Positions 10,053-43,490 of a stretch of DNA of 43,490 nt are shown piece after piece. The first letter of the stretch is position 1. Each line of letters opens with the position of its first letter. The position numbers and the translations under genes are program-made. This DNA comes from Ponticaulis sp. (GTDB lineage: Bacteria; Pseudomonadota; Alphaproteobacteria; Caulobacterales; Hyphomonadaceae): the NCBI GenBank assembly GCA_002723155.1, contig PBNO01000017.1:1-43490 (forward strand), given 5' to 3'. The notes under the pieces were generated by a model. The model saw only the letters and a program-made list of their open reading frames with translations. It was not told where the DNA came from and did no database searches.

Positions 10053-10208
10053 TGATTAGCTCGTCAGCAATCCCGCTACGGTCTCGGTACCGACTGTCCC
10101 CCGGTCTAATCGACGCAAGGCGCGGGACAATATGACCACCCACGAACCGAGTCAACCCTGGTAAATGCTTAACACAGCTTTCAGAAAAAACCGGTCAACT
10201 CATTGATA

Positions 10209-12594: not shown

Positions 12595-12601
12595 GGCGTG
12601 C

Positions 12602-22192: not shown

Positions 22193-22323
22193 GGCTCTTC
22201 CCCCTGTCCGGTTCCTGATTGCGTTCACAGCCGTGATAATGGCCTGGACGTGCGCGCTTTTCTCCCCTCAATTCGGATCACGCGCTACGGTTCTACGAAT
22301 GTGAACAATCCGGGGAAGTTCCC

Positions 22324-23592
22324 ATGTCGCCCACCAGCATGTCCGAGCACGATGCTACCTCTCCAAAATTTTTGCGCGGCAAGTACGCAATCTGTGGCGT
22401 TGGCGAAACCACCTATCGCCGAGGTTCGGAGGAATCTACCCGTTCGCTCGCCACCTGGGCGATCACCAACGCCATGGAGGATTCGGGGCTCGTTCCGGCG
22501 GACATTGACGGCATGCTGAGCTATTCAGGAAACGATTCGATCTTCGCGCCCTGGGTTGCAGGTGATCTGGGCATCCGCCTGAATTTCTACATGGACGTGC
22601 ACGGAGGTGGGTCGTCGACCGAGGCATTGATTGGCATCGCCATCGGTGTCATCGAAGCGGGCATGTGCAAAACGGTGGCCATTTACAGGGCCATGAATGG
22701 CTATTCGGCCGTACGAATTGGCGGCACTGGCACTCGATCGGCCGCCCCCATCGTGGGTGATCAGATCCACCACAGGGCCTACGGCTGGCAAAGCGCGGGA
22801 CAGATGTTCGCACCGACATTTCTGCGCCACATGTATGAATACGGCACGACACCTGAGCAAGTCGCCGCCGTCAAGGTGGCGCATTCCAAGCACGCGTCTA
22901 ACAATCCCAAGGCCTACTACAAGAAGCGCTACACAGTCGATGACGTTGTCCACTCAAGAATCATATGCAAGCCGCTACATCTGCTCGACTGCTGCGTGGA
23001 GACCGACAATGCGACCTGCATCATCGTTACCTCGCTAGAACGTGCGCGCGACTGCAAGCATCCACCTGCCGTAATCCAGTCAGTGGTCGGCCGCTGCTGC
23101 AAGCCAAGGATCGATATGCACTACCAACATGGGCCGATTTCCACGGTCGCGGGTCACTACGCCAAGGAGATCTTGTGGCCAAACGCTGGCGTGGGCCCCA
23201 ACGACATTGACATCACCGGGTCATATGACGCGTTCACCTTCACCACTATGCTACAGCTTGAGGACTACGGCTTCTGCAAGAAAGGCGAAGGGGGAGATTA
23301 TGTCTCGAGCGGCACGATCGAGCTTGGCGGGAAACGGCCCAACAACACCTCTGGTGGCCATCTCTGCGAAGGCTATACCCATGGCATGAACATGGTGATT
23401 GAGAACACCCGTCAGTTGCGCGACGACGTCGATGATAGCTGCCCAATCGGGCCGGACGGCAAGCGCCAGCACACCCACGACCATTCCGAGGGCGGATGCC
23501 GACAGGTCAAGGACGCGGAATTGGCTGCAAATCTCGGCTGGGCTATGCCAGGCACCGGCTCGGCCATGGTTATGGCCAAGGATCTAAGATAG
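22324..23592 (+). CDS. SCP2/thiolase-family protein lacking the nucleophilic cysteine (Ltp2/aldolase-like)
   Basis: 422 residues with the thiolase fold of the lipid-transfer (SCP-x) group: ICGVGETTYRRGS at the start, YMDVHGGGSSTEALI where thiolases have the acyl-accepting Cys, GSYDAFTFT (Tyr301) in place of the H-D-C-F-S type motif, and GGHLCEGYTHGMN (Tyr351) in place of GG...GHPxG. The Cys-less site and the Tyr residues resemble Ltp2-type enzymes, which act as retro-aldolases in steroid side-chain degradation together with a DUF35 partner. The next gene, 12 bases on, is exactly a DUF35 protein. Ribosome site GGGGAAG lies 5 bases before the ATG. It diverges from the DMFase-like gene across about 130 bases. 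Confidence 0.85.
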   Translation: MSPTSMSEHDATSPKFLRGKYAICGVGETTYRRGSEESTRSLATWAITNAMEDSGLVPADIDGMLSYSGNDSIFAPWVAGDLGIRLNFYMDVHGGGSSTEALIGIAIGVIEAGMCKTVAIYRAMNGYSAVRIGGTGTRSAAPIVGDQIHHRAYGWQSAGQMFAPTFLRHMYEYGTTPEQVAAVKVAHSKHASNNPKAYYKKRYTVDDVVHSRIICKPLHLLDCCVETDNATCIIVTSLERARDCKHPPAVIQSVVGRCCKPRIDMHYQHGPISTVAGHYAKEILWPNAGVGPNDIDITGSYDAFTFTTMLQLEDYGFCKKGEGGDYVSSGTIELGGKRPNNTSGGHLCEGYTHGMNMVIENTRQLRDDVDDSCPIGPDGKRQHTHDHSEGGCRQVKDAELAANLGWAMPGTGSAMVMAKDLR

Positions 23593-23604
23593 GAGAGCGG
23601 GACG

Positions 23605-24126
23605 ATGCCAATTCAGGGTGAATATCAGGGCATGATGCTTACCATCGAGGACCTGGATCAGGAAAATCGGGCGTTCTTTCGTTTTTGCGCCGACCGCGAT
23701 TTCCGCCTGCAGCGCGGGAAGAAAAGCGGTCTATTGCGCTACCCGCCTACCACTGCGTGTCCCTGGACCACTGATCGCGAATCGGAATGGGTGCCGGTCG
23801 AGGGCAAGGGAACGGTGCATTCCTACGTCGAGGTGCATCACCCGATCCAGCCGACATTCCGGGACAAAGTACCCTACATGATCATCCTCGCTGATCTCGA
23901 TACCCAAAAAGGCGTGCCAAGTGAACACGAGGCCCTCCGGGTAGCCGGCAACTTGATGACCTCAGATGGCAAGTTCGCGCCGCCTGAAATGATCAAGCGA
24001 ATTGGCATTGGCTCCCGAGTTCGAATGGTTTTCGTGGATGTGACCGGCGAGTTCGCGCTGCCACACTGGACCATCGACGAGGGAGCTGAACAGCCAGAGG
24101 GCCCCTGGCGTTATCCCCAAGAGTAA
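23605..24126 (+). CDS. DUF35 OB-fold protein, partner of the thiolase-like protein
   Basis: 173 residues. After a helical N-terminus (about 10-35, ENRAFFRFCADRDFRLQRG) comes the zinc-ribbon position, here reduced to a single Cys in TTACPWTTD rather than the usual four cysteines. An OB fold follows (GKGTVHSYVEVHHPIQPTF, PYMIILADLD, GIGSRVRMVFVDV). In characterised steroid degraders such proteins bind thiolase-fold aldolases and are needed for their activity or stability. Spacing of 12 bases and GGAGAGCGGGA as ribosome site indicate co-expression with the upstream gene. Confidence 0.85.
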   Translation: MPIQGEYQGMMLTIEDLDQENRAFFRFCADRDFRLQRGKKSGLLRYPPTTACPWTTDRESEWVPVEGKGTVHSYVEVHHPIQPTFRDKVPYMIILADLDTQKGVPSEHEALRVAGNLMTSDGKFAPPEMIKRIGIGSRVRMVFVDVTGEFALPHWTIDEGAEQPEGPWRYPQE

Positions 24127-28675: not shown

Positions 28676-29849
28676 ATGGTACCCACCTTGCGCACAACGG
28701 CCGCGGCCGCGGCCACGCTACTTCTTTGCACTGGCGCCGCTCAAGCGGAAATCAAGATCGGCGTGCTCTATCCGATCGCCGGAACCGGTGCCGTTTATGG
28801 CACGCCCGCGATGCACGGACACAACATGGGCGCGGATGAAGTTAACGCCGCTGGCGGTATTCTCGGCCAGCAGATCGTTACCGTGGCCCGCGATACCAAA
28901 TTAAAGCCAGCGGCGGGCCGCAGCCGCCGCAAAGGAATTGATTACCAAGGAAGGCGTGCAAGTTTTGGTGGGTGGCTTGAGCTCGGCCGTTGGACTTGCG
29001 ATTTCTGAGGTCGCACGGCAGGAAGGGATTGTTTATATTGCGACGATCCCCAAAACAATCCAAATGACCACCACGAAACTGCACAAACACGTCTTTCGCA
29101 CCTCCTCTCATACCGACTTTGAGGGCGACGCGATAGCTCAGATCGCAAAGAAGCTTGGCAAGAAAACACTCTGCGACATTCAGCTAGACTACGCGTATGG
29201 TCATGACTTAGCCGCGGGGATTGAAAAGGGGCTCAAGAGGCATGCGCCACAAATAAAGAAGGTTCTGGACCTGCGTTCCAAGCTGGGTGCGACCGATTAC
29301 AACGCCCAGATTACTCAGATCCTTGGCGCCGGTTGTGAGATCGTCACCAGCGGCCTTTGGGGTTCTCACTTTGTCAACTTTGCGCAGCAAGCCAAGCCAT
29401 TTGGCCTATTCGATAAGGTTACCTACATCTCGGGCGGCGAGATCGCCAGCCACGAGATTGCCGGAAAGATGGGCAAGGATTATCCGGACAATGTGATCTC
29501 CAACACCTACGAACTTTGGTATGATCACACGTTTCCCGGCCATAAAAAGTTTCAAGCGGACCTTGCCAAGCGTTCCGGCAAGAAGGAAACAGCGATGTGG
29601 CCAGTACTCGCCTATATTGGCGTGAAGTTCATCGCAGCTGCCGCCGAGAAGGCAGGCTCGATGGATGCCGACAAGCTGGCTGCGGCGCTTGAGGGCATGT
29701 CAATCGACACTCCGGTCGGTCCCCGCACAATCGACCCGAAGACCCATCAAGCCGACGCGGGTCAATTCTGGGGTCCAATGGTCAAGAAAGACGGCGTGGA
29801 CTATCGCGTCATGAACCCCGTCACCTATTATCCGGCGACTCTCGACTAA
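28676..29849 (+). pseudogene. Branched-chain-amino-acid-type ABC substrate-binding protein, frameshifted
   Basis: Periplasmic type I binding protein (LivK-like). The first frame from 28676 (ribosome site GGGAGG) gives a signal peptide ending GAAQA, then EIKIGVLYPIAGTGAVYG and GGILGQQIVTVARDTKLKPAA. It then goes out of frame. The remainder (AAAKELITKEGVQVLVGGLSS through to DYRVMNPVTYYPATLD) is in another frame ending at 29849. One extra base in the GGG at 28915-28917 (or a two-base loss) accounts for it exactly. The rest of the protein is full length and the downstream transport genes are intact. This may be a sequencing indel rather than a dead gene. Ligand unknown. Confidence 0.88.
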
Positions 29850-29876
29850 GGAGCCTCTTTACCGACACCACCAATT

Positions 29877-29913
29877 CCCTTCCCGCCGGGACATATAGTT
29901 CCGGCGGGAAGGG
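29877..29913 (+). terminator. Strong intra-operon hairpin between binding protein and permease genes
   Basis: A perfect 13-bp stem (CCCTTCCCGCCGG at 29877-29889 with its complement at 29901-29913) with an 11-base loop, followed by TCTTTGT. Placed between an abundant binding protein gene and the permease genes, it probably protects the upstream mRNA and lets only part of transcription continue. Confidence 0.8.
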
Positions 29914-29947
29914 TCTTTGTCTCGCACAGAAAGGTAAATCAGCGCCC

Positions 29948-30844
29948 ATGGACATGTTGCTGTCCAGTCCGACTTTTGTATTCATACAGGTGCTGAACTC
30001 GATCTCACTGGGTATGAACCTATTTATTATCGCTGCGGGACTATCGTTGATCTTCGGCGTTCTCCGCGTGATAAACTTCGCCCATGGTGTTTTTTATATG
30101 TTTGGTGCTTACATCATGTATTCCATCTCAAAGGAGATGGAGTTGGGGTTCGTAACCGGCGTGGTCGCAGCCGGCTTGGGCTTATCGATCATAGCGATCG
30201 TGATCGAGCGCGGTCTGTTTCAGTGGCTCTATGACAAAGAACACCTGATGCAGCTTCTGTTAACTTTTGCGATCGTGCTGATAATGGGAGATCTGGCCAA
30301 GATTATCTGGGGTACCGACCAGTTGAGTGTGTCGTACCCAGAGGGTTTATCGGGCGCGACTAACCTGGGTGTGACATTTTATCCAACTTATCGGCTGACG
30401 TTGGCTGTGATCGGTCCACTAATCTTTATTGGCCTTTTTTTAATGATCGAGCGTACTCGGTGGGGACGGCTCACCCGAGCGGCGACCCAGGACATGGAGA
30501 TGCTGTCAGCGCTTGGCATCAACGTACCGGTTATCTATGTGACAATCTTTTTGATTGGCTCGGCCTTGGCTGGTATCGGCGGCGCGCTGGCCGCTCCGAT
30601 TAACAGCCCCACACCAGGCATGGACGCGACCATTATCGTCGAGTGCTTCGTCATCGTGATTATTGGTGGACTAGGCTCGCTCTGGGGTAGTTTCGTCGGA
30701 GCGTTGGTCTACGGCTTTGTATTTAATTTCGGATCGGTGATCGTCCCAAATTGGCAGGACGTGTTCGCATTCTTGCTTCTCATGGTAGTGCTCCTATGGC
30801 GACCCTGGGGCCTTTTCGGTAAGCCTGAACGTGAGGGTCAATGA
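29948..30844 (+). CDS. livH: Branched-chain-amino-acid-type ABC permease LivH
   Basis: 298 residues of an inner-membrane permease with about 8 hydrophobic segments. SLGMNLFIIAAGLSLIFGVLRVINFAHG is the family N-terminal signature, and the ALGINVPVIYV and GGLGSLWGSFVGALV segments hold the loop that contacts the ATPase and the last helices. First gene after the hairpin; the stop overlaps the beginning of livM. Together with LivM it forms the channel for LivG/LivF. The ligand class may be amino acids, but such systems also import amides, urea and aromatic acids. Confidence 0.92.
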   Translation: MDMLLSSPTFVFIQVLNSISLGMNLFIIAAGLSLIFGVLRVINFAHGVFYMFGAYIMYSISKEMELGFVTGVVAAGLGLSIIAIVIERGLFQWLYDKEHLMQLLLTFAIVLIMGDLAKIIWGTDQLSVSYPEGLSGATNLGVTFYPTYRLTLAVIGPLIFIGLFLMIERTRWGRLTRAATQDMEMLSALGINVPVIYVTIFLIGSALAGIGGALAAPINSPTPGMDATIIVECFVIVIIGGLGSLWGSFVGALVYGFVFNFGSVIVPNWQDVFAFLLLMVVLLWRPWGLFGKPEREGQ

Positions 30845-30845
30845 G

Positions 30846-31787
30846 ATGGGTTGGGCAATGCCACGCGGCGTTCTGACCACGTGCATCCTCGTTCTTGTCG
30901 CACTTGCCTGCGTACCGCTAATGGAGTCGCGCTACCTAATCGATCTGTCGACTGAGATCCTCGTTTATGTTCTGTTCGCTCTGAGCCTAAACGTGATCAT
31001 CGGCTTTTCCGGGAACGTATCTTTTGGCCACGCGGCCTATTTCGCAATTGGGGGATACGCCAACGCTATCCTGCTAACCACATACGAATGGCCACTCTTC
31101 CTATCGTTTCCGGCCGCCGTGGTGCTGTCGGCGGCGGCCGCCGCATTCGTCGCCTATTTTTGCACTCGGCTGACCGACATATACTTCGCTATGCTAACAT
31201 TGGCCTTCTCTATGCTGGTCTGGGCAATCGCGTTCAAGTGGCGCTCTGTCACCGGTGGGGACGACGGTTTTGTGGGCGTTAATGTGCCCGAATTTCTAAA
31301 TTCGCGCGTGCCGTTCTTCTACTTCACACTCGTCATAGTCACGACTTCCATCGCAACGCTTTGGATGATCTGTCATTCCGCATTTGGTCAGACATTGATT
31401 GCGGTACGAGAGAATCTGACCCGCGCAGGTTTCATTGGCGTCAACACACGAATGATGCGGTGTGCGGCCTTTATCGTAGCCGGCACTTTCGCCGGTGTCG
31501 CTGGTGCAATCTTCGCGATGTACAACCGAGGCGTCTATACAGAATCGGCGTTTTGGACCGAGTCCGCTCAAGTGCTGATCATGACGCTGCTGGGCGGCAT
31601 GTACTCCGTTTTTGGCCCTGCGATCGGAGCCACAACGCTCTACTTGCTTGAGCGGTTCGCAAACGAATATACGGAGTACTGGCCGACTGTCTTGGGCGTG
31701 ATCCTTCTTGTCATCGTGCTGGTCTTGCCTGAAGGTCTGGTCGGCCTCGCCAAACGGATCCGCGGCCATATTGCCGGAGGAAATTGA
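30846..31787 (+). CDS. livM: Branched-chain-amino-acid-type ABC permease LivM
   Basis: 313 residues from the ATG at 30846, one base after the livH stop; a GTG at 30831 is an alternative in frame. About 8-10 membrane segments. LSLNVIIGFSGNVSFGHAAYFAIGGY is the LivM signature, AVRENLTRAGFIGVN is the ATPase-coupling loop, and GGMYSVFGPAIGA lies near the end. It pairs with LivH. Confidence 0.92.
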   Translation: MGWAMPRGVLTTCILVLVALACVPLMESRYLIDLSTEILVYVLFALSLNVIIGFSGNVSFGHAAYFAIGGYANAILLTTYEWPLFLSFPAAVVLSAAAAAFVAYFCTRLTDIYFAMLTLAFSMLVWAIAFKWRSVTGGDDGFVGVNVPEFLNSRVPFFYFTLVIVTTSIATLWMICHSAFGQTLIAVRENLTRAGFIGVNTRMMRCAAFIVAGTFAGVAGAIFAMYNRGVYTESAFWTESAQVLIMTLLGGMYSVFGPAIGATTLYLLERFANEYTEYWPTVLGVILLVIVLVLPEGLVGLAKRIRGHIAGGN

Positions 31788-31790
31788 TCC

Positions 31791-32546
31791 ATGGTTGTTC
31801 TCGAGACTAACGGGTTGGTGAAAGATTTCGGCGGGTTCATTGCGATTAACGACGTCACTTTTTCGCTGGAGAAAGGCCAGAAGCACGCCATCATTGGGCC
31901 AAACGGCGCTGGCAAAACTACATTTTTCAATCTGATTACCGGCCATCTGAAGCCAAGCCAAGGAACAGTGGAGTTCGAAGGGCGTGAGATCACTGGCATG
32001 CCGCCGCACCAAATCGTGCGTCTCGGTCTCGCGCGATCTTTTCAACGGATAAATATTTTCCCCCGCATGACGGTCTACGAGAATATCCAAACAGCGCTTA
32101 TCGCCAAGGATCACAAACATTTCAGTCTTTTCACACCGGCCGCCACGCAGAACCGCAAAGAAACCCGCGATCTGCTAGACCTCGTGGGCTTGAATAAAGA
32201 AATGGCCGAAATTGCTGGTGAATTGTCCTATGGCAAACAGAAGCAACTTGAACTCGCAATATCACTGGCCGAAAACCCGAGCATCCTGCTGCTCGATGAG
32301 CCGACGGCGGGTATGTCACCGCAAGAAACGAGCGACGCAATCCAACTGGTCGACGAAATCGCTAGTAGCAGAGGCCTTACTTTGTTGTTCACCGAGCACG
32401 ACATGAGCGTGGTCTTCGGCATTGCCGACCGCATTTCAGTATTGCACCACGGCGAGCTGATCGCCTCGGGCCTGCCTGACGAAGTTCGCAACAACAAAGA
32501 AGTCCGACGAGTCTATCTTGGTGAGGCCGACGATGCCGCAGCTTGA
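31791..32546 (+). CDS. livG: ABC transporter ATPase LivG
   Basis: 251 residues: Walker A GPNGAGKTTFFN, GLARSFQRINIFPRMTVYENI (Q-loop), signature LSYGKQKQLELAISLA, Walker B ILLLDEPTAGMSP, and H-loop FTEHDMSVVFGIADRISVL. LSYGKQ instead of LSGGQ is the LivG hallmark. Strong ribosome site GGAGGAAA lies before the ATG at 31791, 3 bases after livM. It forms the cytosolic motor with LivF. Confidence 0.94.
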   Translation: MVVLETNGLVKDFGGFIAINDVTFSLEKGQKHAIIGPNGAGKTTFFNLITGHLKPSQGTVEFEGREITGMPPHQIVRLGLARSFQRINIFPRMTVYENIQTALIAKDHKHFSLFTPAATQNRKETRDLLDLVGLNKEMAEIAGELSYGKQKQLELAISLAENPSILLLDEPTAGMSPQETSDAIQLVDEIASSRGLTLLFTEHDMSVVFGIADRISVLHHGELIASGLPDEVRNNKEVRRVYLGEADDAAA

Positions 32547-33237
32547 GGTTCATTCGATCCATACATCCTATGGGCTGAGCCAGGTTCTGTTCGGCATCAG
32601 CTTCGTTGTTGAGCCGGGAGAAGTGGTCTCGCTCATTGGTCGTAACGGGGTGGGTAAGACTACAACCATGCGCTCCATCATAGGGCTAACGCACGCGACC
32701 ATGGGCCGAATCACCTTCGAGGGCACCAACATCACGCGCATGGCAGCGCATAGAATTTCGCGTCTTGGCGTCGGCTTTGTGCCCGAGGAACGGCGAATTT
32801 TTCCGCAACTCACAGTCTGGGAAAACCTGGACATCGCCCGGCGTCCGGCCAACAATGGCAACGGCTGGGACGAGGAGCGGGTTTTTTCACTATTCCCAGA
32901 CTTGCGAGACATCCAAAGCCGTCCAGGCGGCGTACTCAGCGGGGGTCAGCAGCAAATGCTGACCATCGCGCGCAGTCTGATGAACAATCCGCGCCTGTTA
33001 TTACTGGACGAACCGTCGGAGGGATTAGCACCTAAGGTGGTCGAGGACCTCCGTGATCAAATCAAAGCCTTGAAGGATTCCGGCCTCTCGATAGTACTCG
33101 CCGAGCAGAACCTATCATTTGTGCTGTATCTAAGCGACCGGTGCCATATCCTAGAAAAGGGTGAGGTTAAGTATTCCGGAACCCCGAATGACTTACGTGC
33201 CAACCCCGACGTATTAGAGCGCTACCTCACACTTTAA
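32533..33237 (+). CDS. livF: ABC transporter ATPase LivF
   Basis: 234 residues from the ATG at 32533 (MPQLEV), overlapping livG by 14 bases; the frame's earlier TTG at 32518 is less likely. Walker A GRNGVGKTTTMRS, VPEERRIFPQLTVWENL, signature LSGGQQQMLTIARSL, Walker B LLLLDEPSEGLAP and switch His replaced by AEQN, all as in LivF. Last gene of the ABC operon. Confidence 0.94.
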   Translation: MPQLEVHSIHTSYGLSQVLFGISFVVEPGEVVSLIGRNGVGKTTTMRSIIGLTHATMGRITFEGTNITRMAAHRISRLGVGFVPEERRIFPQLTVWENLDIARRPANNGNGWDEERVFSLFPDLRDIQSRPGGVLSGGQQQMLTIARSLMNNPRLLLLDEPSEGLAPKVVEDLRDQIKALKDSGLSIVLAEQNLSFVLYLSDRCHILEKGEVKYSGTPNDLRANPDVLERYLTL

Positions 33238-33644: not shown

Positions 33645-34187
33645 ATGATTGCCACCGCTCGTTTTATCGAGCGAATCTCCTATATCGTCGGACTAATCGG
33701 GGCTTGGGTAATGGCGCCCTTGGTTTTGTCCATGGTTTACGAGGTGATCGCTCGAAAACTTCTCGATGCGCCGACTTTCTGGGCCTACGAGGTCGGTTAT
33801 ATGCTCGCCGGCACCACCTACATGTTCGGGATGGCATACTGCCTAAAGGTCGGCGGACATATCCGGGTTGATTTCATTTACGAAGGCCTATCCCTGAAGC
33901 GCAAAGCGGTCGTCAATCTAGTGGGCTTCCTCGTACTCATGTTGCCGGGGGCAATTTGGCTGACTTGGGGGCTCTACGAATACGCGGTGGAGGCCTATGT
34001 CACAAACGAAGTGTCCGGCGAGTCTGCCTGGAACCCCATCATATGGCCGTTCCGCACAGTCTGGGTTATCGGATACGCCGCGCTGTGTCTGCAGTGTGTA
34101 GCCGAAGTACTGAAAAATATCCTGGTCCTTCAAAATGTGGACGTTGCGGCGCTAGGATTCGTTGGCCCCGAGGAGAGCCCGTCATGA
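33645..34187 (+). CDS. dctQ: TRAP transporter small membrane subunit DctQ
   Basis: 180 residues with four hydrophobic helices, starting FIERISYIVGLIGAWVMAPLVLSMVYEVIARKL; the R-K-x-x-D-APTFWAYE segment is the DctQ hallmark, and a second marker is GGHIRVDFIYEGLS. The subunit pairs with DctM in a sodium-driven uptake system. Ribosome site AAAGGGG precedes the ATG. Stop and the dctM start overlap (ATGA). Confidence 0.92.
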   Translation: MIATARFIERISYIVGLIGAWVMAPLVLSMVYEVIARKLLDAPTFWAYEVGYMLAGTTYMFGMAYCLKVGGHIRVDFIYEGLSLKRKAVVNLVGFLVLMLPGAIWLTWGLYEYAVEAYVTNEVSGESAWNPIIWPFRTVWVIGYAALCLQCVAEVLKNILVLQNVDVAALGFVGPEESPS

Positions 34188-35527
34188 CCTTGGGTATTGG
34201 CCTCATGATGTTCCCGGCTTTGATGGTGTGCATCTTCATCGGGTTCCCGGTTGCCTTCTCACTGATGGGCGTCGCGCTTTTCTTCGGGTATTTCCGTTTC
34301 GGTGACGCGCTGGTTCACCAGTTAGTGTCTAAAGTGGACGATGTTGCCTCCTATTACGTCTTAGCCGCAGTGCCACTCTTCGTCTTCATGGGCGCGATGT
34401 TAGAACGCTCGGGCATAGCAGAACGCCTGTTTGAGGCTATTCACCTATGGACACGCCGACTACCGGGCGGTCTAGCAGTTGGAACGGTTATCTTATGCGT
34501 TGTCTTCGCGGCTGCGAGCGGCGTGGTAGGTGCGACGGAATCGGTAGTCGGCCTGCTTGCCATCCCGGTGATGCTCCGCTACGCATACGATAAGGGCTTG
34601 ATTTCCGGCACAATCTGCGCCGGTGGTTCATTAGGTACGATCATTCCTCCCTCGGTGGTGGTTGTCATTCTCGGCCCTGTCGCCGATGTGTCGGTTGGTG
34701 ACTTATTCGTCGGCATGCTGTTCCCGGGGTTGATCTTGGCCGGGCTCTACGTCGTCTACATTCTCGGGCGTTGCCTAATTCGCCCGCAGGATGGACCAAG
34801 CCTGCCGCCCGACGAGAACGAACCTTCCCTGTTACGAAAGCTATACATTACTGCAACCGCCTTGATTCCCCCGTTGGTGCTGATCTTTGCAGTCCTCGGC
34901 ACGATCATGTTGGGTTGGGCGACGCCGACCGAGGCTGCCGCCACGGGGGCTATAGGTACGGTGATCATGACATTGATCTACCGCAACTTTAGCTTCGCTA
35001 TCATGCAGGAGGCTTTTCTGAAAACCCTGCAGATCACCGCCATGATCCTAACGATTCTTTTGGGTGGGGTGATGTTCGCGGGCGTGTTCGTCGCCTTGGG
35101 GGGTATAAGCGCTGTTCAGAATCTGCTGGAAGCGGCGAATTTGACAGCTTGGCCGACCATGCTGATCCTGATGTTGATAGCCTTCATCGCCGGTTTTGTG
35201 CTGGATTTGATCTCCATTGTGCTGATCATCATCCCAATAGCGATTACAGTGTTGCGTGCTATGGGGGTCAACGACGTTTGGTTCTGCATCATGTTCCTAG
35301 TTGTGATCCAGACGAGCTATCTGACACCTCCGATGGCACCAGCGATCTTCTATTTGAGAGGTATAAGTCCCCCAGAGATCAGGCTCTCCGACATGTATCG
35401 GGGCGTAGTGCCGTTCATCGCGCTGGAGTTTATCTGCCTCGGCTTGGTTATGGTATTTCCAGAAATCGCACTCTGGTTGCCGTCGGTGGTGTTCGAAACC
35501 CCAATGAAGCCGGCCATGCCGCCATAA
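34184..35527 (+). CDS. dctM: TRAP transporter large membrane subunit DctM
   Basis: 447 residues from the ATG at 34184, which overlaps the dctQ stop; the open frame begins much earlier, but that part lies inside dctQ. About 12 membrane segments. VPLFVFMGAMLERSGIAERLFE, VGATESVVGLLAIPVMLRYAYDKGLISGTICAGGSLGTIIPPSV and WATPTEAAATGAIGT are the family blocks forming the sodium and substrate sites. GMILDLISIVLIIIPI-type segment ends the protein. With no DctP beside it, the ligand is unknown and the binding protein may be elsewhere. Confidence 0.93.
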   Translation: MTLGIGLMMFPALMVCIFIGFPVAFSLMGVALFFGYFRFGDALVHQLVSKVDDVASYYVLAAVPLFVFMGAMLERSGIAERLFEAIHLWTRRLPGGLAVGTVILCVVFAAASGVVGATESVVGLLAIPVMLRYAYDKGLISGTICAGGSLGTIIPPSVVVVILGPVADVSVGDLFVGMLFPGLILAGLYVVYILGRCLIRPQDGPSLPPDENEPSLLRKLYITATALIPPLVLIFAVLGTIMLGWATPTEAAATGAIGTVIMTLIYRNFSFAIMQEAFLKTLQITAMILTILLGGVMFAGVFVALGGISAVQNLLEAANLTAWPTMLILMLIAFIAGFVLDLISIVLIIIPIAITVLRAMGVNDVWFCIMFLVVIQTSYLTPPMAPAIFYLRGISPPEIRLSDMYRGVVPFIALEFICLGLVMVFPEIALWLPSVVFETPMKPAMPP

Positions 35528-35571: not shown

Positions 35572-35607
35572 CAGGGAGCGCCTACTTAGGCGCTCCCTGT
35601 CCTTTTT
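35572..35607 (+). terminator. Rho-independent terminator after dctM
   Basis: A perfect 11-bp stem CAGGGAGCGCC/GGCGCTCCCTG (35572-35582/35589-35599), 6-base loop, then TCCTTTTT. It clearly ends the TRAP transcript. Confidence 0.92.
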
Positions 35608-35812: not shown

Positions 35813-36583
35813 ATGATGGGTGAACGCCAGACCGAGTTCCGCAAGGGTTACCGCCAAAAGATCGATGGTTGGTACAACGGCTATGTCCATATCGCCGTGA
35901 TTTATTCTATCGGTTTCTCGGCGCTCTGGATTTTCAGTCAGCACATCTCGAACGTGCAATGGTACCAATGGCTGGTGGTACCCGTCACCTTCGTAGGTTG
36001 TAACATCTTCGAGTGGTTCCTCCACAAATATGTCATGCACCGACGCATTAACGTGACTGGATTGCGCGCGATTTATGAGAGACACACTCTTAACCATCAC
36101 CAGTTCTTCACCGATGAGGAGGTGCGTTTCCGTGATCATGGGGACTGGCGGGTGACGGTCTTCCCTCCATACGCATTGGTCATTTTCATCATGATGTCCC
36201 TGCCGGGCGTGGCTGTATTCGGTTATCTCTTTGGCTGGAATGTTGGATGGCTGTTCATCTGCACCACCGTTTCCATGTATCTCATTTACGAATTCATGCA
36301 CTTCTGCTGCCACGTGGACGAAAACGCCTTCGTGCGCAACATGCCTTTTATTAATACGCTACGTCGTCACCACGTAGCGCATCACAACAAAAGCCTCATG
36401 ATGGAAACCAACATGAACCTGACTTTTCCGATAGCGGACTGTCTTTTTGGAACTTCTGATCTTGACCGCGGATTACTCGGCCACATTTTCAACGGTTACA
36501 ACACCAAATATCTCAAAACAAATATGCGCTCGCGACCACGTACTCCCATCGAGGCCTCGTTAGGCCCAGTCCCGGTAGATTAA
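35813..36583 (+). CDS. Fatty acid hydroxylase/sterol desaturase superfamily membrane protein
   Basis: 256 residues with four or so membrane segments and the histidine clusters of the di-iron hydroxylase/desaturase superfamily: HKYVMH (71-76), HTLNHH (91-96), HFCCH (about 163-167) and RHHVAHH (about 182-190). The cytosolic face would hold two irons and hydroxylate a lipid or long-chain molecule with O2. Good ribosome site AGGAGGGG is 9 bases upstream. It opens a plus-strand series with the DUF547 and M19-like genes. Confidence 0.88.
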   Translation: MMGERQTEFRKGYRQKIDGWYNGYVHIAVIYSIGFSALWIFSQHISNVQWYQWLVVPVTFVGCNIFEWFLHKYVMHRRINVTGLRAIYERHTLNHHQFFTDEEVRFRDHGDWRVTVFPPYALVIFIMMSLPGVAVFGYLFGWNVGWLFICTTVSMYLIYEFMHFCCHVDENAFVRNMPFINTLRRHHVAHHNKSLMMETNMNLTFPIADCLFGTSDLDRGLLGHIFNGYNTKYLKTNMRSRPRTPIEASLGPVPVD

Positions 36584-36632: not shown

Positions 36633-37463
36633 ATGAAACGGTGTGCTTTTCTGCTCGCAGCGGTGTTTTTTTTGTCCGGATTCGCAACGATTGAGCGTCT
36701 CTTCGCGCCGGACGCCCAACCGTGGGAACGTTGGAAACAACACAATCCGACAAGCACAGCGCACGTCGACCACGCGCCATGGCAGGCCTTCCTCGATCGC
36801 TATCTTGAAGTTCTCGACGGTGACGCCAATCGCGTACGGTATGGCGAGGTGACAGGCGAGGATCGAAGCACACTCGATCGCTATATCGAAACATTAACGA
36901 AGCTGCCTATCGGTGCCTTTGCTCGTAATGAACAGTTGGCCTACTGGATCAATCTTTACAACGCTCTCACCGTCCAGGTGGTGTTAAATCGTTATCCAGT
37001 CAAAACCATATTGGATGTCGATATTGCTGCTGGCCTATTCTCGAACGGCCCCTGGGATGCCAAGCTGATCGTGATTGAGGGCGAGGGCGTTTCACTGAAC
37101 GATATAGAGCATCGCATACTGCGTCCGCTCTGGCGTGATCCTCGGATCCACTATGTTTTAAACTGTGCGTCAATCGGCTGCCCTGACCTACGCCCACGGA
37201 CATTATCGCCCAATAGTATGGATAGTGTTCTGACACGGGCAGCGCAGGAATTTGTGAATAGTTCGCGCGGCGTCTCCATCGAGGACAATATAGTGACGGT
37301 TTCCCGCATCTACGACTGGTTCCACGAAGACTTTGGCTCTTCCGATCGAGACGTGCTCGGGCACATAGCCGGTTTCGCTGAACCGGAACTCCGGACACGA
37401 CTCGAAGCTATCGGCGAGATCCATCGGGTAGCCTATGATTGGCGTTTAAACGACGCACCTTGA
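36633..37463 (+). CDS. DUF547 domain protein, exported
   Basis: 276 residues. A signal peptide (basic MKRC, hydrophobic FLLAAVFFLSGFA) leads to the DUF547 fold, with WQAFLDRYLEVLDGDANRVRYGEV, AYWINLYNALTVQVVL, NDIEHRILRPLWRDPRIHYVLNCASIGCPDLR, and a C-terminal SRIYDWFHEDFGS. DUF547 proteins are widespread in the envelope; biochemical role unknown. It follows the hydroxylase gene by 49 bases, so co-transcription is likely. Confidence 0.88.
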   Translation: MKRCAFLLAAVFFLSGFATIERLFAPDAQPWERWKQHNPTSTAHVDHAPWQAFLDRYLEVLDGDANRVRYGEVTGEDRSTLDRYIETLTKLPIGAFARNEQLAYWINLYNALTVQVVLNRYPVKTILDVDIAAGLFSNGPWDAKLIVIEGEGVSLNDIEHRILRPLWRDPRIHYVLNCASIGCPDLRPRTLSPNSMDSVLTRAAQEFVNSSRGVSIEDNIVTVSRIYDWFHEDFGSSDRDVLGHIAGFAEPELRTRLEAIGEIHRVAYDWRLNDAP

Positions 37464-37537: not shown

Positions 37538-38536
37538 ATGTCGGATGAACGCTCCTATTCAGGCTTCGTGATCGATGGCGCCCAATACGCCAAATGGGAC
37601 CGTCAAACCTTTCAAGAGATGCGCGACGGTGGCGTGGACTGCGTGAACGTCACTATCGTCTATTGGGAGACCGCACGCGATACCCTGAGTGAGATTGGTA
37701 GGTGGAATCGGTTCTTCGAACGTCATAATGACCTCATTATGCCAGCACAAACAGGAAACGACATACGCGTGGCGAAGGAGCTAGGTAAGACGGCGATCAC
37801 GTTTGCATTTCAACACTGCTCGCCAATCGAAGAAGATATCGATCTGGTCGAAATCATGCACACGCTCGGTGTCCGCTTCATGCAACTCAGCTACAACAAC
37901 CAGAGCGTCTGCGCGACCGGTTGCTACGAGGAGGAGGATCCAGGAATTACTCGGTTCGGACGTCAGGTGATTCGCGAGATGAACCGCGTCGGCATGGTGA
38001 TTGATATGTCTCATTCGGGCGAACGCTCGACCTTTCACGCGATCGAACTTTCTGAGCGACCAATCACCATCACGCACGCCAATCCCAAATCTTGGCACCC
38101 GGCACTGCGCAACAAGACCGACAACCTGCTAACAGCGCTCGCCGAAAGTGGGGGTATGTTGGGCTTTTCAATGTATCCATTTCACATGAAAGGCAAGTCG
38201 AACTGCACTATAGAGTCGTTCTGCGAGATGATCGCGAGGACAGCGGATTTGATAGGTATTGAACACATCGGGATTGGCTCTGATCTGGTCCAGGGTCACC
38301 CAAACGAAGTGGTCGAGTGGATGCGCAATGGTCGTTGGAGCAAGGAAACGGACTTCGGCGAAGGAACGGCGAGGGATGCCGGCTGGCCCGATCCGGTCTC
38401 CTGGTTCACCAGCAACCAAGATTTTCCCAAAGTAACCACGGGCCTGCGCTGTCATGGATTCGGGGAGGATGAAGTCGACCGGATTATGGGTGGAAACTGG
38501 TTACGTTTCTTTGACAAGCATTTTGGCCCGGCATGA
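37538..38536 (+). CDS. M19 (renal dipeptidase) family protein lacking the HxD metal ligands
   Basis: 332 residues from the ATG at 37538, which has GAGGGAAG upstream; the frame opens 99 bases earlier inside the DUF547 gene. Family marks: FQHCSPIEE (Glu98/99), VIDMSHSGERS (His159), ITITHANP (His180), EHIGIGSDL (Asp249) and IMGGNWLRFF. M19 enzymes normally begin with DGHxD (two zinc ligands). Here residues 13-17 are DGAQY, so both are missing, although bridging Glu, both later His and the Asp remain. It may bind one metal or use a different substrate. The stop overlaps the next start (ATGA). Confidence 0.88.
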   Translation: MSDERSYSGFVIDGAQYAKWDRQTFQEMRDGGVDCVNVTIVYWETARDTLSEIGRWNRFFERHNDLIMPAQTGNDIRVAKELGKTAITFAFQHCSPIEEDIDLVEIMHTLGVRFMQLSYNNQSVCATGCYEEEDPGITRFGRQVIREMNRVGMVIDMSHSGERSTFHAIELSERPITITHANPKSWHPALRNKTDNLLTALAESGGMLGFSMYPFHMKGKSNCTIESFCEMIARTADLIGIEHIGIGSDLVQGHPNEVVEWMRNGRWSKETDFGEGTARDAGWPDPVSWFTSNQDFPKVTTGLRCHGFGEDEVDRIMGGNWLRFFDKHFGPA

Positions 38537-40248
38537 CCACGTCGACCTCCATCACAATCGCTTCTCCAACCCAGGTGGCTCTGCGTACACCCGGCAAAGT
38601 GATGCGCCTGGCGCGAATTGGCGCGTTTCACGCAACCCGCCTCAGCTTCGCGCGCACCATTGTGCGGCGCATGACGCGGGAAGCCTGGAAGTTTACCCGT
38701 CCTGTCTTCGATCTAGACGCGGATGGGATTGGCACCGCAATATACCGAGTAGACACGGCCGCCGCCCCGGTCTGGTTCGTCGTTTTCGCCGACCATATTG
38801 CCCCAGAGGACCGCACTGACCGTGTCATCGCGGAGAAGTGGGACGCGACGTTCGCACTCACAACACGCGCCCCGGACGACAGTGAGATCGCCCGTCTACG
38901 GGCCAATGTACCGCTCCAAGAAGGAGGTCGATGCTCGTCCGGAGAGCTAATCCTGAGCCGAGCTAACAAGAGCGTCAGGCTCTTCGAGCACGTGGTGAAC
39001 GCCCTTTCTCAAGGTCAACAGCCTAACCGCGCCAAGATCTTGGAGGTGGGATACCTGATCCGGACTACTGCGGTCTACGGCAACGGCAAGTTCGGTTTGG
39101 CGGATTTTAATCAGGTCAAGGCGGACGGTATCTTTAGTATGCCCTTTCAGGCGGAAATGCTGTGTGTCTACATGGCACGTCTTTTCAGTATAGATTGGGT
39201 AGAACATATCGCATGGATGCGAAATCCACCCTTATTCAAACCACTCGACTTGGGTCTAGCGCGCGCGTTGGGGGTTGGCAACGCAACTGGCCTCGGCATG
39301 GCTCCGTTTCTTATCAACCATCCACTTCTCATCGACCGTTGGATCACCGCTCGGGAAACCGCACTCGCCCGCGTGCGTTCTGTGGACCCAGTGAGAGAGA
39401 CAGAAAGATTGCGATTCATCGCCCTTATGGATCGAGCCAGCATACACTTGGACCAATGGCCGACCACAGACCTCCAACAGCAACAAAGAAACGCTGTATT
39501 GATCGAACAGATTCCATGGATTTTGGATACTGCACGATCGCTATGTGGAACTCGCATCTGGGACCAGTTGGTCCACTGGGCAGAGGATACGCTCTCCCTA
39601 GAATCTCAGGAACTGGTCAACAGCCTTTTGATTGAACTTCATCCGGATTTAGTGGACGAACTGGAGAGCGAAACCGGATCGGATGAGCGTATGGTCCTCG
39701 ATCCCAGTATGAAACTGAAAGACCTCAAATTCACCATCGAGGATAAGTACGATTGGTCGCTGGCCATCGACTTTGCAAGAGACGGAGCCAGAACCATGTT
39801 CTGGTACCGTTCGGCCGAAAAGGAGGAACCCCGACTTGGTTACCGGTTTGAGGAGCCTGGGGAAGAACTCGAAATGCAGGTCGCCATCGCCCACGATGTC
39901 GTGTCGCTGCATCACTGCCTCAATGATCGAGATCCAGATATGCTGGAAGCCACTATCGCCGAGTTCCTAATGAAGTTTCCGGAGTGGCGCGAAACCACAC
40001 GACGCGTCCAGAACGTTGCCCGATTTCCCTACGGTGAGATTCGAGATAACTTGCTCGACGCTAGCTGCCGCCCGATCGATCTCCTGCGGTGTAAACTTTC
40101 GATCTTCGGCGCTACGAAGTTCGATCCAAAATCCAATCTCTGGACACGAATTGCGCTGTTTCAGGGCGCACCACTGACGGCCGAACTTTCTAAGGAAGAT
40201 GCAGACGACTGGGCCTTTCCATTCCTATCCAAAGGATTGGGGCTATGA
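38533..40248 (+). CDS. Protein of unknown family, 571 residues
   Basis: I do not recognise a known domain. The N-terminal 120 residues are basic and mixed alpha/beta, with AIYRVDTAAAPVWFVVFADHIAP and KWDATFALTTRAPDDSEIARLRANVPLQEGGRCSSGELILSRANKSVR. The middle has GYLIRTTAVYGNGKFGLADF and EMLCVYMARLFSIDWVEHIAWMRNP, and GVGNATGLGMAPFLINHPLLIDRWI. The C-terminal third (about 390-470) is acidic and contains DWSLAIDFARDGARTMFWYRS, then EPRLGYRFEEPGEE. No signal peptide or clear membrane helices, so probably cytosolic. Both ends overlap neighbours by ATGA (38533-38536, 40245-40248), so it is made with the M19-like and DUF3726-like proteins. I recall homologues in similar alphaproteobacterial clusters but cannot verify this. 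Confidence 0.85.
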   Translation: MTTSTSITIASPTQVALRTPGKVMRLARIGAFHATRLSFARTIVRRMTREAWKFTRPVFDLDADGIGTAIYRVDTAAAPVWFVVFADHIAPEDRTDRVIAEKWDATFALTTRAPDDSEIARLRANVPLQEGGRCSSGELILSRANKSVRLFEHVVNALSQGQQPNRAKILEVGYLIRTTAVYGNGKFGLADFNQVKADGIFSMPFQAEMLCVYMARLFSIDWVEHIAWMRNPPLFKPLDLGLARALGVGNATGLGMAPFLINHPLLIDRWITARETALARVRSVDPVRETERLRFIALMDRASIHLDQWPTTDLQQQQRNAVLIEQIPWILDTARSLCGTRIWDQLVHWAEDTLSLESQELVNSLLIELHPDLVDELESETGSDERMVLDPSMKLKDLKFTIEDKYDWSLAIDFARDGARTMFWYRSAEKEEPRLGYRFEEPGEELEMQVAIAHDVVSLHHCLNDRDPDMLEATIAEFLMKFPEWRETTRRVQNVARFPYGEIRDNLLDASCRPIDLLRCKLSIFGATKFDPKSNLWTRIALFQGAPLTAELSKEDADDWAFPFLSKGLGL

Positions 40249-40922
40249 GCATTCGGATCTCTTCTGCGGAAATCCTTCAAACCAGCCTGAAAGCGTTAGA
40301 GGGTCACGGGGTGGCGCATGGTCTCGATTTCGATGGTGCGACAAATGTGACATGGCTCGCAACGCGGGGGCTCGCCGGGATCTCAGTATTGGTGGCTGAA
40401 CTGCAAGATACCGAGCCGGGCGCCGAATGGATCGAACCGTATATTGAAGACGACGACGATGTCGCGACTATAATCTCGAAACGATCAAGCGGACTACTGC
40501 TCGCACCTGGCGCAACGGACTGGGCTCTGAATGGCCAGGATGTTCGTATTCCCGACTGTCATGCACCATTATTGTTCGTCGCCGAGGCGGCACGCCGCTC
40601 AGTCGAAGGGATTGGTTTTCGAATCAAATGGCACGCGGGCAGCGCTCGAAACAACGCGAGGTGCGGTCATGGAGAGGCGGCCTTATCGCTTGATCTTCGG
40701 ACGGTCAACGACGCGTCAACCGTTACGATAAAACTCGCTAGACCACCCAAAGCGAAAGATCTCGCGCGGCTGGCTGCCTTCCAAACAAAGTCGTTGCGCG
40801 ATGGGATCACTGTGGACCCGCACGACTGGGACGCACTCAAAGTAGCAGCGCGTAGGGTGCTCGTACCAACCAGTGATCGCTCACGCGGTGGAGCTGGGGC
40901 GGATGTGGACGACAGTGCCTGA
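40245..40922 (+). CDS. DUF3726-like protein
   Basis: 225 residues. SSAEILQTSLKALEGHGVAHGLDFDGATNVTWLATRGLAG is like the DUF3726 N-terminus, where an alpha-helix and a W-x-A motif start the fold; the rest contains PLLFVAEAARRS and VDPHDWDALKVAARRVLVPTSDRSRGGAGA near the C-terminus, also as in DUF3726. No biochemical role is known for the family. It overlaps the 571-residue protein's gene by 4 bases and is 107 bases ahead of the ThDP enzyme. The family name is recalled from memory and moderately sure. Confidence 0.7.
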   Translation: MSIRISSAEILQTSLKALEGHGVAHGLDFDGATNVTWLATRGLAGISVLVAELQDTEPGAEWIEPYIEDDDDVATIISKRSSGLLLAPGATDWALNGQDVRIPDCHAPLLFVAEAARRSVEGIGFRIKWHAGSARNNARCGHGEAALSLDLRTVNDASTVTIKLARPPKAKDLARLAAFQTKSLRDGITVDPHDWDALKVAARRVLVPTSDRSRGGAGADVDDSA

Positions 40923-41044
40923 CCGAGAAAAAAGTCACCAAGCCTCCGGATCACCCACATGGAGCTTATCGGGCCGGCCTCGACACGGGCGATACCCGCG
41001 CCTTACGCTTCATTCTTAGGTTCGTATGGATGAAAGGATGGGTA

Positions 41045-42775
41045 ATGGCGGTCCAGGAAAAGTATGACGAAATCGGAGTACGGCGGGTCCCGACCTATCA
41101 GATACTAGCCGAGGATATCAAGGCCATGGGTGTCGACACGGTCTTTGGGTTGATGAGTGACGACACGGCGCATTTCGGCGTTACTCTAGATGCTGTCGGG
41201 ATCAAGTTTCTAGGCGCTCGCCATGAGAACATCGCAATCACGATGGCCGATGGATATGCAGCGGCGACTGGCCGCCTTGCAGTCGTCTGTGTCGGCCGCG
41301 GGCCGGCTCTTGCTAATGGTCTGCATGGAGCGACCTTCGCCAGTCGGACGGGCAATCCGTTGTTACTAATCTATGGCGAGTCGAACCTGCCGGGTGGTAG
41401 CGTCAACGGGCAGGGTCCCGACTACAAAGGTCTAGATGCAGTGGGCGTCTTAACGGCGGCCGGCATCCGGACTTTTACCCCGACAAGTGCCGAAGCTGCG
41501 CGTCGTACCCTCGCTGATGCGGCTGCCGCCGCACGCTTGGGTCAGACCGTAGCACTGCTGCTACCGGTCAATGTTCAGTTGGCCGAAGTGGACGTGCACG
41601 ACCACGAGATTACGATCGCGCCAATAGATGCTACCCCTATACCGAGAAGAGTCGGACAGCCGGCTCGGGCGCATGCCGTCGCCGCATCTGTCGCGATGTT
41701 GGCCCAAGCGAAAAGGCCACTCATCCTGGCAGGCCACGGTGCCCACAAGGCCGGTGCTAAGGGGGCCCTCATTAGTCTCTCAGAGAAAACGGGGGCGCTC
41801 TTGTCTACTACGGCAAAGGGCAAGGACATGTTCAAGGGTCACCCTCATAATCTAGGAATCATCGGATCGTTCTCGCATTCGATGGCGAGGCGGATGGCGG
41901 GAGAGGCCGATTGCGTGCTCGCCTTTGGGGCCGGGCTCAACATCCTAACCATGAGTTTCGGTGAGTCGCTTCCTGACGCGCCGCTGATCCAAGTCGACGC
42001 CGTGCGCTCGAATATCGGGCGTTGGACGACAGCTGATGTGGCCGTCGTCGGTGATGCCAAGTTAGTAGCAGAACAACTGGTCGCCGCTGTGCCGGATCGC
42101 ACGGCTGAGGACAAGCCGTTTCATGGCACTGAGTCCCTAGGATTGCTCGATAAATTCTCACTTGCCGACGACTTTCAGGCTGGTAACACCGCACGCACTG
42201 TCGACCCTCGCTCGCTTGGCGTGACACTCGACCGGCTGCTACCCAAGATGCGCAACGTGGTTTACGATGCCGGAAATTTCCTCGGCATTGTTCCCTATCT
42301 CTCGGTGCCGGGGCCGGATCATTTCAAGATGACAAACGACTTTGCCTCGATAGGGCTTGGTTTTGGTGCAGCCCTGGGTTTTGCCCGGGCGCACCCTGAC
42401 GTTCCGACGGTACTGGTGATCGGCGACGGTGGATTTCTTATGACAATGGGTGAACTCGAAACCGTGGTGCGCGAAGACCTTCCGCTGGTAGTCGTTCTGA
42501 TGAACGACTGCGCCTATGGAGCAGAACTGCATTTTCTGCGATTGCGTCAGCTTCCGGTCGCTAAGTCGATCTTCCCGGATGTGGATTTCGCACCGATCGC
42601 TGAGGGTTTCGGCTATGACGCCCGTACGATACGGACCTTGGACGAGCTAGAGACAGTGGCTCCAATACTCGCAAATCCCGAAGGACCGATCTTTCTCGAC
42701 TGTAAGATCAACGCCGATGTGGCGGCTCCCTTTATGAGTGAGGTCGCCGCCGCCGACGCGAAACGGCAGGGTTGA
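41045..42775 (+). CDS. Thiamine-diphosphate-dependent enzyme, acetolactate-synthase superfamily
   Basis: 576 residues from the ATG at 41045 (GGATGGG just upstream; 41030 is an alternative). Three-domain ThDP layout: Pyr domain with catalytic Glu in ARHENIAITMADGYAAATG (about 63), a central domain (about 195-330), and a PP domain with IGDGGFLMTMGELETVVRE and VLMNDCAYGAELHF, the GDG...N motif. The second Asn is Asp (MND rather than MNN). The missing FAD/regulatory features make a decarboxylase or carboligase as likely as acetolactate synthase. It probably belongs to the M19-571-DUF3726 operon. Confidence 0.9.
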   Translation: MAVQEKYDEIGVRRVPTYQILAEDIKAMGVDTVFGLMSDDTAHFGVTLDAVGIKFLGARHENIAITMADGYAAATGRLAVVCVGRGPALANGLHGATFASRTGNPLLLIYGESNLPGGSVNGQGPDYKGLDAVGVLTAAGIRTFTPTSAEAARRTLADAAAAARLGQTVALLLPVNVQLAEVDVHDHEITIAPIDATPIPRRVGQPARAHAVAASVAMLAQAKRPLILAGHGAHKAGAKGALISLSEKTGALLSTTAKGKDMFKGHPHNLGIIGSFSHSMARRMAGEADCVLAFGAGLNILTMSFGESLPDAPLIQVDAVRSNIGRWTTADVAVVGDAKLVAEQLVAAVPDRTAEDKPFHGTESLGLLDKFSLADDFQAGNTARTVDPRSLGVTLDRLLPKMRNVVYDAGNFLGIVPYLSVPGPDHFKMTNDFASIGLGFGAALGFARAHPDVPTVLVIGDGGFLMTMGELETVVREDLPLVVVLMNDCAYGAELHFLRLRQLPVAKSIFPDVDFAPIAEGFGYDARTIRTLDELETVAPILANPEGPIFLDCKINADVAAPFMSEVAAADAKRQG

Positions 42776-42905: not shown

Positions 42906-43490
42906 TCAACGGTGTTCTGTCACGTGCTTTAAGAGGCTACTGGTGAAAGCTTCCGGCTGTTCGATATTAGCTAGGTGTGCGGCATTCGGTATCAACTCTA
43001 ACACCGCGCCGGAGATGCCATCGGCGATCTCCTTAGCCTGTTCTGGCGTCGTACCCTTGTCCTCCTCACCGCAGAGTACTAGGGTCGGCTTGGAGATTTT
43101 CGGGTTCGTAGGACGCATGTCCATCGCCATGATCGCCTGACCGCAGGAAATGAAGCCACTCGCAGGGGTCGATAGTATCATCTCTCTCACCTTCTCCACC
43201 TCATCGGGAATGCGTTGCTGGCCAAGATGAGTGAACCAACGGTCGATTGTCCCATCGACAACCGCTTCCATGCCATCCTCTCTCACCGTCGCGATACGCT
43301 GCTCCCAGACATCCTTGGCCGGCATATGGGCCGCACTGTCGGCGATAGTGAGTGATTTCACCTTGTCCGCATGCCGCATCCCCATCATCTGTCCAACCAT
43401 GCCACCCTTGGATAAGCCACAAAAATGCACCGACCCTATCTTCAAATAGTCGATCAAACTGGCCGCGTCATCCGCAAGCATTTCTATGCT
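42906..43490 (-). CDS. Alpha/beta hydrolase (5' end beyond the window)
   Basis: The C-terminal 190 or so residues of an alpha/beta hydrolase. Nucleophile Ser in FCGLSKGGMVGQ, the Asp in PTLVLCGEEDKGT and the catalytic His in PNAAHLANIEQPEAF are present. The reading frame stays open to the window end, so the N-terminus lies beyond 43490. Style is that of 3-oxoadipate enol-lactonases and related hydrolases. It converges on the ThDP gene with a 130-base gap. Confidence 0.88.
   Translation of the reverse strand, partial: SIEMLADDAASLIDYLKIGSVHFCGLSKGGMVGQMMGMRHADKVKSLTIADSAAHMPAKDVWEQRIATVREDGMEAVVDGTIDRWFTHLGQQRIPDEVEKVREMILSTPASGFISCGQAIMAMDMRPTNPKISKPTLVLCGEEDKGTTPEQAKEIADGISGAVLELIPNAAHLANIEQPEAFTSSLLKHVTEHR

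Follow-up and report, generated by a model that had tools for sequence, protein, structure and literature searches.

A conserved three-gene unit is encoded in a 43,490-nucleotide stretch of DNA assigned to Ponticaulis sp. (GenBank assembly GCA_002723155.1, contig PBNO01000017.1), hereafter referred to as the window. Its products are an M19-family protein with an altered metal site (M19), an orphan protein of 571 residues (U571) and a DUF3726 protein. This trio is a real, conserved and functionally coupled unit, and we estimate a probability of about 0.6 that an operon built around it breaks down a cyclic N-methyl betaine, homarine (N-methylpicolinate) being the most probable one. The original prediction had joined the three genes and a following thiamine diphosphate (ThDP)-dependent lyase or ligase into a candidate pathway not described before.

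The four open reading frames were found at the positions given in that prediction, all on the forward strand: M19 (332 amino acids) at 37538..38536, U571 at 38533..40248, the DUF3726 protein (225 amino acids) at 40245..40922 and the ThDP enzyme, which has three TPP domains, at 41045..42775. Both predicted ATGA overlaps are present, at 38533 (M19/U571) and at 40245 (U571/DUF3726). In a Pfam scan, M19 was assigned to PF01244 (267.6 bits, cut-off 26) and the DUF3726 protein to PF12525 (23.7 bits, cut-off 22.1). U571 had nothing above the cut-off in Pfam and no match in NCBIfam.

The association between U571 and DUF3726 is nearly constant. With the window's own assembly included, U571 was found in 53 of the 385 genomes of the class and in 2 of the 150 genomes of the order, and PF12525 in 43 of the 385 (E-value threshold 0.001; 42 above the cut-off). 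All 43 lie within the 53, and in 43 of 43 the DUF3726 gene is next to U571, sharing its contig and strand, as judged by eye from the coordinates. On the assumption of independent genomes, which does not hold, the chance of such an overlap would be about 1e-47. A second, named set was taken from a scan that gave at least 581 U571 relatives; the best 80 were used, so that counts on this set lean towards close relatives. Among loci with 500 bases available, DUF3726 lies directly downstream of U571 in 35/40 of the class set and 79/79 of the named set. At least two loci were counted twice (L034 is L091, and L040 is L102), and the locus counts are thus not all independent. The five class-set loci lacking a downstream DUF3726 gene are L066–L069 and L071. 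L066, L067 and L068 hold distant U571 relatives (31–33% identity) with no DUF3726 match, indicating that the family has further branches; an M19-like gene is present in L066 and L067.

The junction between the two genes was inspected in 127 loci by frame and position of the start codon. In 98 of them, the start of DUF3726 and the stop of U571 overlap (69 ATGA, 13 TAATG and 16 other overlaps); 23 others are gapped, four have no DUF3726 gene on the strand, one has no start nearby and one is not adjacent. The last of these we take to be L155, a Mesorhizobium plasmid in which U571 and DUF3726 run in one frame and are annotated as a single protein (8956–11400). Our conclusion is that the two proteins share one function, each supplying a part of it. 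The constant pairing, the mostly translational coupling and the fusion make it most likely that both are components of a single enzyme.

The link of M19 to this pair is real but looser. An M19 gene of the same subfamily is present in 35/40 loci of the class set and 65/72 of the named set; it lies directly upstream of U571 in only some (26/40 and 34/72, respectively) and overlaps U571 in 38 of 127. The original prediction held that such strict coupling implies a complex or a single pathway. This stands for U571 and DUF3726, applies less tightly to M19 and does not extend to the ThDP enzyme (see below). Neighborhood analysis of U571, which had been proposed as a check, bore out its pairing with DUF3726, with M19 as the usual companion. 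Among the matches listed, U571 is carried by Halomonas, Marinobacter, Pseudomonas, Mesorhizobium, relatives of Roseobacter, SAR116, a bin labelled Pelagibacterales and four bins labelled Acidimicrobiales. It was also found on 168 plasmid records.

A U571 profile compared with the PDB yielded no convincing relative; the best match, a V-ATPase subunit (E 0.023), was rejected as weak, and the others, obtained with a second alignment, had E values of 0.88 or higher. In a 47-member alignment of U571 and its relatives, seven Pfam families were matched, each by one member only. A resemblance of U571 to Ldh_2 or DUF3726 was likewise dismissed as weak. Of the 46 proteins in the DUF3726 alignment, six match Ldh_2 (PF02615) with E values of 0.01 or below (best 5.8e-13), in one case in the N-terminal part. 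The window's DUF3726 protein had no Ldh_2 match in the Pfam scan; DUF3726 is shorter than Ldh_2, and the profile comparison of the two spans 55 columns with a probability of 40 only.

In several relatives the trio is part of a larger operon. On annotated plasmids of Phaeobacter (L153) and Aliiroseovarius (L158), five structural genes and a LysR gene stand together. The Phaeobacter order is LysR, aldehyde dehydrogenase (ALDH), M19, BCCT transporter, U571, DUF3726 and an Ldh_2-type dehydrogenase (Ldh), and the Aliiroseovarius operon has the same order with the BCCT gene at the end. A Mesorhizobium plasmid carries a similar LysR-ALDH-M19-U571-DUF3726-Ldh operon. On a Pseudomonas plasmid the operon is split over two directions with no Ldh in the stretch, and on a Shinella plasmid Ldh lies on the other strand and DUF3726 is unannotated (profile match 60 bits). 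Profile searches of an unannotated Vibrio stretch found LysR, ALDH, M19, BCCT, U571 and DUF3726. Neighbors were counted in the 95 of 120 loci with 5 kb available on both sides of U571: ALDH was near in 43, Ldh in 28, BCCT in 25, LysR in 34, BCCT or ProVW in 36 and a Rid protein in 16. An alpha-subunit match to sarcosine oxidase or Mgd (N-methylglutamate dehydrogenase) was found in 5 of the 95. Four sarcosine-oxidase-like genes, of Mgd or sarcosine oxidase, lie beside the Aliiroseovarius operon and two beside that of Phaeobacter, where the stretch ends. The operon ALDH is nearest to alpha-ketoglutaric-semialdehyde dehydrogenase (482 bits against a cut-off of 770) and 2,5-dioxovalerate dehydrogenase (479 against 750), and the operon Ldh_2 to L-sulfolactate dehydrogenase (181 against 500), all below the equivalog cut-offs. 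We take DpkA and N-methyl-amino-acid dehydrogenase to be members of the Ldh_2 family.

The betaine transporters, the Ldh_2 reductase, the ALDH of a five-carbon-semialdehyde type and the N-methyl dehydrogenases seen in some loci suggest that the substrate is a cyclic N-methyl betaine. A 2026 study by Ferrer-Gonzalez et al. in Nature Microbiology reportedly gives the homarine operon the name homABCDER and N-methylglutamate as one of its products. The operon is also said to comprise five structural genes and a regulator and to occur in Rhodobacterales, SAR11 and SAR116. Compared with this description, the relatives' operon likewise has five structural genes and LysR, in Rhodobacterales and others, and sometimes lies beside sarcosine-oxidase- or Mgd-like genes, and U571 also occurs in genomes labelled SAR116 and Pelagibacterales. 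The claim that the pathway is undescribed is therefore doubtful: since the relatives' full operon resembles what is reported of the homarine pathway published in 2026, the pathway is most probably that one. Marine phytoplankton use homarine as an osmolyte (PMC9723723, PMC12817926), and Mgd takes part in its catabolism according to PMC13390433, where the 2026 pathway paper is cited by title. The same text places the AraC-type gene tmaR beside mgdABCD in Ruegeria (PMC13390433), an arrangement resembled in L153 and L158, where a helix-turn-helix gene accompanies the operon together with the sarcosine-oxidase-like genes.

If homarine is the substrate, the steps could be as follows. U571-DUF3726 might attack and open the N-methylpyridinium ring, and the M19-like protein, holding at most one metal, would hydrolyze the resulting N-formyl or imine intermediate, as its enzyme family suggests. 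By the same token, the ALDH would oxidize the freed five-carbon semialdehyde and Ldh_2 would reduce an N-methylimine to N-methylglutamate, which Mgd may finally convert to glutamate. An N,N-dimethylformamidase-like gene of the window (DMFA2_C; 20033–22228, reverse strand) was considered as support for an N-formyl intermediate and set aside, as a homologue was found in only 1 of 126 loci scanned (L082; 777 bits, about 6 kb from U571).

Several points weigh against the assignment to homarine. The ring-opening step is a guess because no structure of U571 is known, and the comparison with the reported hom gene content is indirect. The full operon is not universal, as ALDH or Ldh is near U571 in only 58 of the 95 loci, and sarcosine oxidase/Mgd alpha or dimethylglycine dehydrogenase (DMGDH)-type genes are near in only 9. 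In the window itself, ALDH, Ldh_2, LysR and BCCT profiles found no match within 9 kb of U571, and three genes of the presumed homABCDER set are present.

It is possible, if rather unlikely, that the operon follows the same general logic in degrading another cyclic or open betaine, such as proline betaine/N-methylproline, pipecolate betaine, trigonelline or a carnitine-like compound. Consistent with this, the nearest NCBIfam model to the LysR protein is the proline-binding PsrA, though far below the cut-off (145.6 against 540 bits), a gene with a P5CR dimerisation domain and ProU transporter genes stand beside the Shinella copy, and Rieske-type dioxygenase genes are near in 4 of the 95 loci. 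However, these extra genes are rare in the neighborhood, and the make-up and taxonomic spread of the operon fit the homarine operon as reported. A literature search on trigonelline brought up nothing of use.

A second alternative concerns the window and its closest kin, where the trio may have been turned to a different substrate. A tree with 125 U571 rows, calculated by a quick method, places the window with L073–L076 and L081 (SH-aLRT, the Shimodaira–Hasegawa-like approximate likelihood ratio test, 99). The window, L073 and L075 have a block in common that comprises a branched-chain-type (LIV) ABC transporter, the DctM subunit of a tripartite ATP-independent periplasmic (TRAP) transporter, a membrane hydroxylase-like gene and the trio. 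In the window, all components of the block are on the forward strand. The LIV genes (28938..33237; a binding protein, two permeases and two ATPases, identified by reading the translations) encode proteins 80–91% identical to those of L073 and L075, with one ATPase not called in L073. The TRAP genes follow as DctQ (33645–34187; PF04290) and DctM (about 34175–35527; PF06808); the comparison covered DctM, which is 81–86% identical in the two loci. Overall, the proteins up to the hydroxylase are 79–91% identical between the window and L073/L075, M19 is 73–80% identical and U571 54–65%.

The hydroxylase-like protein (35813..36583; 256 residues) is of the sterol desaturase/FA_hydroxylase type and appears to be an accessory of the window's clade. 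It had been called lipid hydroxylase-like in the original prediction. The window protein itself has no Pfam match, but against FA_hydroxylase (cut-off 31) its orthologue in L073 scores 30.7 bits, marginally too low, and that in L075 scores 34.2 bits. Orthologues 67–85% identical occur in L073, L075, L081 and L106, and in L081 the hydroxylase and M19 genes stand together, apart from U571. In L106, U571-DUF3726 is followed immediately by a PhyH-type dioxygenase gene (12376–13275), and the hydroxylase gene is nearby. The DUF547 gene (36633..37463, forward strand; PF04784) does precede M19 directly, as predicted, and we regard it as accessory; homologues were found only in L072 and L073 among the 126 loci scanned.

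In contrast to homABCDER as reported, the window and its clade have LIV, TRAP and hydroxylase genes in the available flanks instead of ALDH, Ldh_2 and LysR. No ALDH, Ldh_2 or LysR profile match was found near U571 in the six clade loci, of which L074 and L076 have almost no upstream DNA. In the genomes of the kin (G530–G534, incomplete bins or single cells), no match more than 35% identical to the operon ALDH was found. Either the later steps would be encoded elsewhere in this clade, or its substrate differs. On the latter explanation, a compound imported through LIV or TRAP would first be hydroxylated by the membrane hydroxylase and enter a separate, undescribed pathway; we consider this doubtful. 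The clade support, the block conserved at 73–91% identity from LIV through DctM and the hydroxylase to M19, the hydroxylase-M19 pair in L081 and the low ALDH identities in the kin genomes all speak for it. Against it, the absence of ALDH and Ldh is weak evidence, because the kin genomes are incomplete and because low identity is no bar to the role: in the sister locus L078, the Ldh_2 beside U571 is only 37% identical to the query. Furthermore, G530 has an Ldh_2 of the operon type (58%) on another contig, with no other operon gene in the surrounding 13.5 kb, and the hydroxylase family is also found in unrelated gene settings. A bolder and likewise unlikely proposal holds two things at once, namely that U571 and DUF3726 form an enzyme of a novel kind, which has no relation to the known ring-opening oxygenases and opens an N-methylpyridinium-type ring without a recognized cofactor domain, and that the clade's trio, hydroxylase and LIV/TRAP uptake serve a non-homarine substrate in an undescribed pathway.

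That M19, U571, DUF3726 and the ThDP lyase constitute one new four-gene pathway is very improbable. The ThDP gene is on the same strand and starts 122 bases past DUF3726, and L099 holds one weak ThDP-family match (116 bits). However, a ThDP homologue above 250 bits was found in none of the 95 U571 loci with 5 kb on both sides, and L073 and L075 gave no ThDP match, the latter with only about 0.5 kb available beyond DUF3726. Close ThDP orthologues occur in 9 of 372 genomes of the class, including the window's own; among the other eight, G511 alone has U571, on a different contig, where about one would be expected by chance. Comparison of open reading frames in seven regions around the orthologues revealed no other gene in common with the window's 28–43.5 kb (in L174 the ThDP frame was not called). 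On plasmids, the nearest copy (55% identity) is surrounded by genes for branched-chain-type ABC transporters. The window's ThDP gene is a bystander rather than a pathway member, and its inclusion with the coupled genes was rejected.

The altered metal site of M19 is a trait of its subfamily rather than a novelty of the window. Residues were compared in 102 sequences of nearly full length that scored above 300 bits, including the window's own and the loci counted twice. His and Asp are missing from both positions of the HxD motif in every sequence, and all have Gln92 at the position of the bridging Glu and Tyr119 at that of a His; His159 is retained in 101 and His180, Arg191 and Asp249 in all 102. 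In dipeptidases these positions presumably provide the HxD zinc ligands, the bridging Glu and the catalytic His of a binuclear zinc site. The original prediction was therefore right that HxD is lost and that some of the site remains, and mistaken in taking the rest of it to be intact. A canonical M19 protein encoded elsewhere in the same assembly keeps T-H-L-D, the Glu and the His (the HxD region was gapped by the aligner and read by eye). The closest solved structure, 2i5g, is a distant relative (223 bits) with the same replacements: HxD is absent, Gln and Tyr are present, and the two His and the Asp are kept, as read by eye from the alignments.

The window protein shares a whole-domain profile match with the canonical M19 membrane dipeptidases (PF01244), whereas it has lost half of their binuclear zinc site. 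Judged by its residues, it is no canonical dipeptidase, and the prediction's own caution that it might prove a normal one finds no backing at the HxD positions. Although it belongs to PF01244, an ordinary dipeptidase present by chance is highly unlikely, given that HxD, the bridging Glu and one more His are replaced in all 102 sequences and that M19 recurs in most U571 loci.

We take 2i5g to be P. aeruginosa PA5396, the product of the dipeptidase gene that precedes dgcAB. No paper in the literature collection searched mentions PA5396 or DUF3726. A gene designated dipeptidase (pepD) precedes dgcAB, for dimethylglycine catabolism, in Pseudomonas aeruginosa and Vibrio natriegens (PMC12093977), and a gene list is available for the dimethylglycine dehydrogenase locus (PMC10963909). 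The pepD-dgcAB arrangement shares a betaine-linked context with the trio, but the passage describing it names no U571 or DUF3726.

The window is the whole contig (C17) of an 18-contig assembly, and its composition does not fit that assembly. The tetranucleotide profiles of seven 20-kb stretches from other contigs intercorrelate at 0.46–0.72, whereas the window's last 20 kb correlates with them at −0.03 to 0.33, and L033, from a genome of the same order, at 0.28–0.58. Ten of ten overlapping 7-kb pieces of the window (1–39850) gave −0.02 to 0.36, below the lowest of 14 controls (0.39), two of them only slightly. The kin locus L073 correlates with the window's last 20 kb at 0.53, a value raised by homologous genes, and unrelated loci reach about 0.4. 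From the tetranucleotide misfit and the rarity of U571 in the order, the contig is probably mis-binned and stems from an organism related to L073/L075; alternatively, it is a transferred island. No Ldh_2, Mgd or DMGDH was found in the assembly (G000). As the assembly is probably not the contig's owner, this was not used as evidence, and an early inference that the organism is devoid of ALDH, Ldh_2 and Mgd was withdrawn. At 1700–3214 of the window, one frame joins a truncated histidine kinase to a cyclophilin, a possible assembly join near 2.7 kb.

Among the other features of the window, an alpha/beta hydrolase gene (42906–43490, reverse strand) is truncated by the contig end, and a thiolase-like lipid-transfer protein with a small partner weakly resembling BbsA is encoded at 22324–24126. 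Terminator-like hairpins occur between DctM and the hydroxylase gene (12 pairs, 35572–35599; weak) and after the LIV binding-protein gene (16 pairs, 29877–29913). The region has 12 hairpin matches against a mean of 14.9 in shuffled sequence, that is, no excess.

The trio is found in many marine and soil bacteria, and the window carries a variant of what is probably a known pathway. U571, which belongs to no Pfam or NCBIfam family, and DUF3726, a domain of unknown function, gain a testable role as the two parts of an enzyme. The U571-DUF3726 pair with M19 represents the stable core, around which dehydrogenase, reductase and transporter parts are exchanged, and this exchange matters wherever metagenomes are searched with the full operon as a marker.

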